From assembly GCF_014174305.1 (NCBI RefSeq), contig NZ_JABEQH010000001.1, positions 186,001-250,000 on the forward strand: a stretch of DNA of 64,000 nucleotides, given 5' to 3'. The position numbers were made by a program, and so were the translations under genes. The DNA is from Gluconacetobacter johannae (GTDB lineage Bacteria > Pseudomonadota > Alphaproteobacteria > Acetobacterales > Acetobacteraceae). The number at the start of each line of letters is the position of its first letter. The stretch's first letter is position 1. The notes under the pieces were generated by a model, which saw only the letters and a program-made list of their open reading frames with translations, made no database searches and had not been told where the DNA came from. Of the stretch, positions 23,994 through 25,654 are shown one piece after another.

Positions 23994-24581
23994 TCAGGCG
24001 GGGCTGGGGTCCAGCCACCCGATATTGCCGTCCTCGCGCCGGTAGATGACGTTGATCTGGTCGCTGGTGCTGTTGCGGAACATCAGCAGCGTGCAGGCTG
24101 CCAGATCCAGGCGCATGACGGCCTCGCTGACGCTCAGTGTCGCGATTTCGGCGACCCGTTCCGCGACGATGGTCGCGTGGGGGCCGGTTTCCTCGGCCGC
24201 GGCGCCATTCTGCACCGGTCCCGTATCGGCGGGACGCAGGATGTAGTTGCGACCGACTTCGGGCGATTTCCGCCGGGGAAGCGCGCGCAGATGGTCGTTC
24301 ACCCGGCCGCGATAGCGCCGCAGCCGGCGGGCCATGTGCTCGGCGGCGTCATCGAATGCGCCATGGGCGTCGTTGGCCTCGCCTTCGCCGCGCAGGGTCA
24401 GCCCCGGCGCGGCGTGAAGATTGATGTCGCAGGTGAAAAACGATCGGGCGCGGCTGAACGTGACCTGGGCATCCAGCGCCCGGCCGAAATATTTGTCGGC
24501 AAGATGGTCGAGATGGGCAGTGACCCTGTGCTTCAAGGCGTCGGAGAGGTCGATCTGCTTTCCAGCGACACTGATCTGCAT
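23994..24581 (-). CDS. hpf: Ribosome hibernation promoting factor, long form
   Basis: Binds the 30S decoding region and dimerises 70S ribosomes during stationary phase. The 195-residue product has the N-terminal HPF/RaiA domain (MQISVAGKQIDLSDAL, FTCDINLHAAPG, DAAEHMARRLRRYRGR) to about residue 110, then a linker and a C-terminal dimerisation domain (MRLDLAACTLLMFRNS, INVIYRREDGNIGWL). AAGGAG is upstream of the ATG. Its place downstream of lptB and the rpoN remnant is the usual lptB-rpoN-hpf order. ptsN, often next, is absent. Confidence 0.93.
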   Translation of the reverse strand: MQISVAGKQIDLSDALKHRVTAHLDHLADKYFGRALDAQVTFSRARSFFTCDINLHAAPGLTLRGEGEANDAHGAFDDAAEHMARRLRRYRGRVNDHLRALPRRKSPEVGRNYILRPADTGPVQNGAAAEETGPHATIVAERVAEIATLSVSEAVMRLDLAACTLLMFRNSTSDQINVIYRREDGNIGWLDPSPA

Positions 24582-24668
24582 AGTGACGTCACTCCTTGCA
24601 TGGAGGATGCCTTCAGAGCCGGGGAAGCCGGGCCGGAGGCCCGTTCTGCCGAGGCCGTCCGTCGGGCG

Positions 24669-24845
24669 TCAGGCCCTGAAAGCCTTTTCCCGTTTTCTCT
24701 GCACCGAGCTGGGTATCTTCAGTGCATCCCGGTATTTGGCCACGGTTCGCCGGGCGATGTCTATTCCTTCCTCGCGCAGCAGGTTCACGATTGCATCGTC
24801 CGACAGGATGGCCTGCCGCAGCGCCAGCCTGGGGCCGATCGCCAT
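24669..24845 (-). pseudogene. rpoN: RpoN (sigma-54) relic: C-terminal RpoN-box segment only
   Basis: The minus strand encodes 58 residues from an ATG at 24845 to TGA at 24669. LSDDAIVNLLREEGIDIARR, then TVAKYRDALKIPSSVQR, is the C-terminal DNA-binding end of sigma-54, and ARRTVAKYRD is the RpoN box (consensus ARRTVAKYRE). A normal RpoN has about 450-500 residues, so the activator-, core-binding and region I domains are gone. The gene sits exactly between lptB and hpf, its usual place. The frame is open with an ATG 11 bases after lptB, so a mini-protein could still be made, but no good ribosome-binding site is visible. Confidence 0.85.
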
Positions 24846-24856
24846 GGCGCGGGGAA

Positions 24857-25654
24857 TCAGAGGGAGAAATTTTCCCCGAGGTACACCCGCCGGACGTCCT
24901 CGTTGGCGACGATTTCCTCGGGCCGGCCCTCCATCAGGACCTGGCCGCTGTGCATGATATAGGCCCGGTCGATGACTTCCAGCGTTTCGCGCACGTTATG
25001 GTCGGTGATGAGCACGCCGATCCCGCGATCCTTGAGGTGCGACACCAGGTCGCGGATTTCGCCCACCGCGATCGGGTCAATGCCGGCCAGGGGCTCATCG
25101 AGCAGGATGTAGTGCGGCTGGCTGGCCAGGGCGCGGGCGATTTCCAGACGCCGCCGCTCGCCGCCCGACAGGGCCAGCGACGGGGCCCGGCGCAGGTGCG
25201 AGATGCCGAATTCCCCCAGCAGCCCGTCCAGCAGCGCCTCGCGCCGGTCGGGGTCGGATTCCACGACCTCCAGCGCGGCCATGATGTTCTGCTCGACATT
25301 CAGGCCGCGAAAGATGCTGGCTTCCTGCGGCAGGTAGCCGATGCCCAGCCGGGCGCGGCGATACATCGGCAATTGCGTGATGTCGGCGCCGTCCAGCGTG
25401 ATGGTGCCGGTATCCGGCTGCACCAGCCCGACGATCATGTAGAAGCTGGTGGTCTTGCCCGCGCCGTTGGGGCCGAGCAGGCCCACGGCCTCGCCCCGGT
25501 GGACCTGGAGCGACACGTTCCGGACCACCGGACGTTTCTTGTATGTCTTGCCGATTCCGCTGGCGATCAGGCCGGGCAGGGCCGGCGCCGCGCCATCGGC
25601 CTGGGCGGACAGAATGTGCGCGTCGCCGGCCAGGTCGTACGGAATGTCGTTCAT
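24857..25654 (-). CDS. lptB: LPS export ABC transporter ATP-binding protein LptB
   Basis: ATPase of the LptB2FGC transporter that pulls lipopolysaccharide out of the inner membrane. The 265-residue protein has Walker A GPNGAGKTT, Q-loop LPQEASIF, signature LSGGERRRLEIARAL, Walker B YILLDEPLAGIDP and the switch His in ITDHNVRETL. An N-terminal extension of about 28 residues precedes the ABC domain. Its ATG overlaps the lptA stop by 4 bases. It is last of lptC-lptA-lptB. Confidence 0.96.
   Translation of the reverse strand: MNDIPYDLAGDAHILSAQADGAAPALPGLIASGIGKTYKKRPVVRNVSLQVHRGEAVGLLGPNGAGKTTSFYMIVGLVQPDTGTITLDGADITQLPMYRRARLGIGYLPQEASIFRGLNVEQNIMAALEVVESDPDRREALLDGLLGEFGISHLRRAPSLALSGGERRRLEIARALASQPHYILLDEPLAGIDPIAVGEIRDLVSHLKDRGIGVLITDHNVRETLEVIDRAYIMHSGQVLMEGRPEEIVANEDVRRVYLGENFSL

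Follow-up and report, generated by a model that had tools for sequence, protein, structure and literature searches.

A remnant of the native rpoN gene in Gluconacetobacter johannae retains a candidate hpf promoter within the codons of the RpoN box

The closest described systems concern two different uses of the rpoN gene. In P. aeruginosa, a promoter for hpf has been reported within rpoN, according to an excerpt of an article (PMC7764885) that cites Akiyama 2018. The RpoN* roadblock is a designed protein from the 60-residue C-terminus of A. aeolicus RpoN, for which an excerpt of PMC5626770 reports binding to the -24 element and a roadblock effect in P. aeruginosa. Our literature search found no report treating Acetobacteraceae, rpoN and hpf together, and no further report of an hpf promoter inside rpoN was recognised in the titles and abstracts returned. 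Here we describe a 58-codon stump at the native rpoN site of Gluconacetobacter johannae, located within a 64,000-nucleotide stretch of contig NZ_JABEQH010000001.1 (hereafter the window). The stump is a deletion remnant of the housekeeping rpoN that was probably spared because its DNA holds the likely promoter of hpf.

The stump was identified from the list of open reading frames (ORFs), a match to PF04552 and a comparison with the 10 intact rpoN genes of the genus. It covers positions 24669 to 24845 on the minus strand and reads as a single open frame of 58 residues from ATG to TGA, with the ATG placed 11 bases past the lptB stop, as the earlier note had described. Its upstream neighbour is lptB (24857 to 25654, 265 aa; TIGR04406, 372.3 bits, cut-off 240) and on the other side lies hpf, the gene for the ribosome hibernation-promoting factor (23994 to 24581, 195 aa; TIGR00741, 54.2 bits, cut-off 40.9), both on the minus strand and both above the NCBIfam cut-offs. 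Positions 119 to 160 of the Pfam model Sigma54_DBD (PF04552) match the stump with an E-value of 9.2e-16 and 59.2 bits, which is above the curated cut-off, so the similarity is not due to chance.

Although the earlier note had matched the 58 residues only to the C-terminal end of sigma-54, comparison with native genes showed that residues 1-12 (MAIGPRLALRQA; 24810 to 24845, minus strand) are the N-terminus of native RpoN with its own start codon, identical at 11 of 12 positions to that of the nearest relative, G009. Residues 13-58 (24672 to 24809, minus strand) correspond to the last 46 codons of the native gene, starting with ILSDD and including the RpoN box ARRTVAKYRD but without helix 1, as judged from the native genes and structural models. 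Since G009 has an intact rpoN of 463 codons at the same site, the large deletion proposed in the earlier note is borne out, and as reconstructed from this comparison the stump is an in-frame internal deletion of native rpoN in which codon 12 was joined to the last 46 codons. It has the RpoN box of sigma-54 and is without Region I, the core-binding domain and the full DNA-binding domain, and as in a pseudogene the ancestral locus no longer holds the body of the gene. The rpoN of G009 has two copies of CGGCAGGCC close to its start, the second followed by ATCCTG, and GCCATCCTG occurs again in the tail in the same frame. A deletion through these repeats, in one step or two, may have shrunk the housekeeping gene and left its start and tail joined at the native site.

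To place the stump in context we examined the same interval across the genus. The hpf gene was found in all 14 genomes and is preceded by lptB and a full rpoN in 10 of them, which confirms that the stump sits at the native lptB-rpoN-hpf position. The full gene is gone in four genomes, namely the source genome (G000), G006, G011 and G013, in all of which the last 46 to about 60 codons remain as DNA, with nearly the same starting point for the remnants of G006 and G011/G013. The frame at the native site is open in the source genome and broken in the other three: the tail of G006 has an internal TAA stop, while in the tails of G011 and G013 a frameshift separates the ILSDD part from the box part and the box itself reads GRQTVSKCPD. 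Such stops and frameshifts in relatives are what the earlier note had expected of a decaying relic rather than a retained protein. Because all three of these tails are disrupted, protein function is not, judged from the sequences, the general reason for the retention of the tail. In a tree inferred from lptB and hpf, G006 grouped with G001, G002, G004, G005, G007 and G010 (support 100), G011 and G013 were sisters placed elsewhere, and G000 was placed with G009; by parsimony, the native rpoN appears to have been lost in three lineages of the genus.

Searches with PF04552 gave no rpoN match in G011 and G013 (the G013 genome is 87% complete), and in G006 they found no rpoN besides the remnant at the native site. 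Two of these genomes without a full-length rpoN, G006 and G011, nevertheless encode an NtrC-like protein whose GAFTGA loop, which makes the contact with sigma-54, is intact. G011 and G013 also contain a short inverted repeat just past the lptB stop at the former start of rpoN (CCCCTTC..GAAGGGG in G011), which is perhaps a new terminator for lptB.

The spared DNA contains a conserved 30 bp element, TAGACA-N15-TG-G-CCAAAT (24734 to 24763, minus strand; TAGACA at 24763-24758, TG at 24742-24741 and CCAAAT at 24739-24734), which overlaps the codons of the RpoN box, starts 182 nt before the hpf ATG in the window and is a candidate hpf promoter. All four Gluconacetobacter stumps carry the element in its general strict form, T[AG]GACA-N14/15-TG-N-CCAAAT. 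In the decayed tails of G011 and G013, none of 14 element positions had changed versus 26 and 29 of 124 positions outside it, a sparing that with p values of 0.07 and 0.04 is weak evidence by itself.

The element was also found where rpoN is no longer visible. We examined 49 genomes of g55, which we take to be an Acetobacter-like genus; 46 had an hpf match, with rpoN directly upstream in 14 and not in 32, some of which keep an rpoN elsewhere. The strict element is present in 28 of these 32 genomes, 152-179 nt before the hpf ATG, and at these 28 loci no rpoN coding sequence is recognisable, so that the element stands as bare DNA. In two others (G284 and G303) the second box differs at a single base, and the element is absent from the remaining two (G153 and G315). 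In an alignment of the 30 genomes that carry the element, exactly or with this one change, the two boxes, the TG and an upstream A-rich block were near-invariant while the spacer and the leader varied; the A-rich block is weak in G000. No match to the element was obtained in 8400 letter-shuffled controls (42 upstream regions, 200 shuffles of each). All 14 native rpoN genes of g55 have the same element inside the RpoN box, where it is intact in G282 despite an Ala to Thr change, and a conserved, hpf-linked element lies within rpoN itself, as would be expected of a promoter inside the gene.

To estimate how specific the element is to hpf, we searched the 49 whole g55 genomes for TGGACA-N15-18-CCCAAAT. 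This yielded 27 matches spread over 26 genomes, with 21 matches immediately before hpf and 6 elsewhere, whereas the reversed pattern used as a control gave 9 matches, so that away from hpf the real pattern was no commoner than the control. Since 21 of the 27 matches precede hpf, the element is tied to this gene and not to a large regulon of the kind that the pattern would reveal. At the level of sequence we could show an hpf-linked element that shares DNA with the codons of the RpoN box and can persist once rpoN is gone.

Not all losses of rpoN spared the element. A protein tree of 69 hpf sequences indicated at least 7 losses of native rpoN, although this tree is rough, being based on a single short gene, with the chosen outgroup not grouped and G026 on a long branch. 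The strict element was kept after four of the losses (G000, G006, G011/G013 and the main g55 clade apart from G153 and G026). It is missing after the losses in G077, G315 and g97; no element was detected upstream of hpf in G026 and G077. In the four rpoN-less genomes of g97, a relaxed form was present in two and the strict form in none. We rejected g97 as support, since an rpoN-tail profile matched two of the four g97 gaps, those of G109 and G259, with E-values of only 0.74 and 1.6 and a shuffled control scored better (0.063). In G153, hpf is preceded not by lptB or rpoN but by a gene that by eye resembles a membrane transporter, and its hpf likely has a new promoter. The hpf query was unmatched in 11 of 16 rpoN-less genomes of the family (G035, G066, G069, G082, G090, G097, G102, G106, G137, G152 and G154), which reflects either joint loss of hpf and rpoN or simple sequence divergence.

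We also examined codon choice in native genes of the family, 42 once duplicates are removed (43 loci, with G008 and G014 counted twice, plus G248), a sample from a family in which PF04552 matched 205 of 249 genomes. Within the element, Val was encoded by GTG in 41 genes, Ala by GCC in 37 and Lys by AAA in 41, and the codon preceding Asp was one of the TRG-forming codons ATA, GTG or GTA in 41 of the 42. The corresponding counts for 28 genes from other alphaproteobacteria were 7, 14, 13 and 3, and in 17 rpoN paralogs located away from hpf GTG was used for Val in 4 and GCC for Ala in 0. An Ala codon in the spacer was unbiased (20/35 versus 17/28), and the ACC codon for Thr in the spacer was biased too (36/43 versus 12/28). 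The tests of codon bias used the 43 loci without G248, and relatedness among the sequences makes the p-values of these tests, like those for the decayed tails, overstate the significance. The strict element was present in 15 of 19 distinct native genes (20 loci) and absent from G016, G018, G028 and G248 despite hpf following rpoN there. Among 87 named and other gene entries from outside the family, 28 had the element, with hpf adjacent in every case, and 44 had hpf but no element, so that in these the expression of hpf must depend on something else. Silent-site variation among the 10 native genes of the genus was 0.140 for the last 50 codons versus 0.288, a scan that we rejected as sole proof since windows over alignment columns 221-255 were about as low (0.163 and 0.143).

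We propose that the element is the main promoter of hpf, in which TRGACA would serve as a -35-like and TGnCCAAAT as a -10-like box at a spacing of 17-18. Its removal would reduce hpf expression, and the deletions that survive would be those that stop short of it; the 58-residue peptide, if produced, would be a by-product. A scan with the sigma-70 consensus found no promoter at the element, and CCAAAT is far from TATAAT. For G. oxydans, an excerpt of PMC5756330 gives a lax promoter consensus (-35 ttGnnn, -10 nAtnnn), to which TRGACA fits at -35 and CCAAAT fits at -10 only if read one base later. This departure from TATAAT, together with a partial dyad (TGGACAC...GTGCCCA) in several g55 copies, would suit an element that is a regulator-binding site or another cis signal for hpf and not a promoter core. 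We consider this unlikely, given that the box spacing varies by one base among the 30 aligned g55 copies (17 in 11, 18 in 19), as promoters allow, and that the A-rich block is located directly upstream, where an UP element would be. A search of Rfam with positions 24400-25000 of the window yielded no match up to an E-value of 1. Nor was conserved RNA structure detected in the hpf leaders, with energies of -0.9 for 20 rpoN-less g55 leaders (mean of shuffled columns -0.3, sd 1.0) and -13.7 for 13 native leaders, which is not beyond the shuffled-column controls (-8.1, sd 3.3, lowest -16.2).

If the stump were a pure relic of a recent deletion, it would be under no selection and the spared tail would be a coincidence. 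The few changes on the G000 branch, 2 in 174 nt versus 13 in 248 fourfold sites of lptB and hpf, are compatible with this, but the same tail was spared by three separate losses and the element persists in rpoN-less g55 genomes in which the coding sequence is no longer recognisable, so we regard a pure relic as very unlikely. The dN/dS ratio proposed in the earlier note would rest on the two changes since the split from G009 (Lys6Arg and one silent), which are too few for such an estimate and weigh neither for nor against constraint. The same note argued that a neutrally drifting relic should have lost the RpoN box, an argument that fails because the deletion may be young and because the DNA of the box includes an element, linked to hpf, that stays conserved whether rpoN is present or not.

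Genome-wide searches of the kind suggested in the earlier note recovered both full rpoN genes and NtrC-type activators. PF04552 matched the source genome in three places only, the stump and two complete rpoN genes. One of these, on contig C7, encodes 477 aa and is found with nifB, nifA and modA (all above NCBIfam cut-offs) as well as a modC-like gene (best match, below the cut-off). The other, on contig C16, adjoins hypE and hypD (above cut-offs), a gene for a nickel transporter of the HoxN/HupN type (best match, below the cut-off) and one for an NtrC-type response regulator that matched no family above its cut-off. There were seven matches to PF00158, four of them strong: an adjacent pair of NtrC- and NtrX-like proteins, which we presume to be NtrC and NtrX, NifA, and the C16 regulator. 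GAFTGA is present in the NtrC-like protein, NifA and the C16 regulator and absent from the NtrX-like protein. On contig C14 of G009, a third rpoN of the hydrogenase-linked type is broken; its counterpart on C16 of the source genome is intact.

With two full-length RpoN proteins and four strong activator matches persisting in the genome, the stump could in principle yield a mini-RpoN, translated from the native start, that binds the -24 elements of nif and hydrogenase genes without RNA polymerase and damps both sigma-54 proteins, much as the earlier note had suggested. The frame is open with native start and stop codons, the RpoN box is intact, and the designed 60-residue A. aeolicus C-terminus lowered transcription in P. 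aeruginosa (excerpt of PMC5626770). However, the open fusion occurs in 1 of the 14 genus genomes, the other three stumps being broken, and chance alone gives an in-frame join in about one third of deletions. Helix 1 is also missing. Aligned to PDB 2o8k, the stump matches from residue 25 of 63 onwards, which implies that the designed peptide should contain helix 1, and a model of the native RpoN tail (mean pLDDT 69.9) places helices at residues 5-21, 30-39, 46-56 and 61-69, whereas the stump takes up at residue 26-27 of that tail, past the first helix. Judged by this model, the stump would lack a complete free-standing RpoN DNA-binding domain. We find a retained decoy or repressor highly improbable, and the stump can be explained without such a peptide. 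Similarly improbable is a natural counterpart of RpoN*, in which the 58-residue fusion competes with the nif and hydrogenase sigma-54 proteins at -24 elements while the same codons act as the hpf promoter.

If the promoter reading is true, a single stretch of DNA in this family does double duty, encoding sigma-54's most conserved DNA-reading motif and acting as the likely promoter of hpf. This would account for silent codon positions in rpoN that stay fixed, for the form that several separate losses of rpoN have taken and for the bare element that precedes hpf after rpoN has vanished. A conserved motif within a gene stump would then not have to signify a conserved protein, and in the rpoN-less relatives a promoter relieved of its coding role could be studied as a natural experiment. 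The chief value of the analysis lies in the element and in the fact that it overlaps the RpoN box.

Compared with genomes that contain multiple rpoN genes with separate roles, such as Bradyrhizobium and Ralstonia, which were compared in outline, G. johannae likewise has more than one copy (the nif and hydrogenase copies) but has lost the one at the housekeeping site while keeping these two. The stump resembles an ordinary deletion-remnant pseudogene in that little of the gene is left at its native site, and differs from it in being in frame and in having a 3' part that is conserved as DNA. As described in the excerpt of PMC5626770, RpoN* is a short protein with little beyond the RpoN box, of which the stump ORF would be a natural look-alike; RpoN*, however, should hold the whole three-helix domain, whereas the stump has a 12-residue RpoN N-terminus in place of helix 1. 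Most of the other alphaproteobacteria sampled do not have the element, which was found in this family. In P. aeruginosa, hpf likewise follows rpoN and is reported to have a promoter of its own inside that gene (excerpt of PMC7764885), as is proposed here for the Acetobacteraceae. The comparison is by description, and what would set the family apart is that its element lies in the codons of the RpoN box and can outlive the gene.
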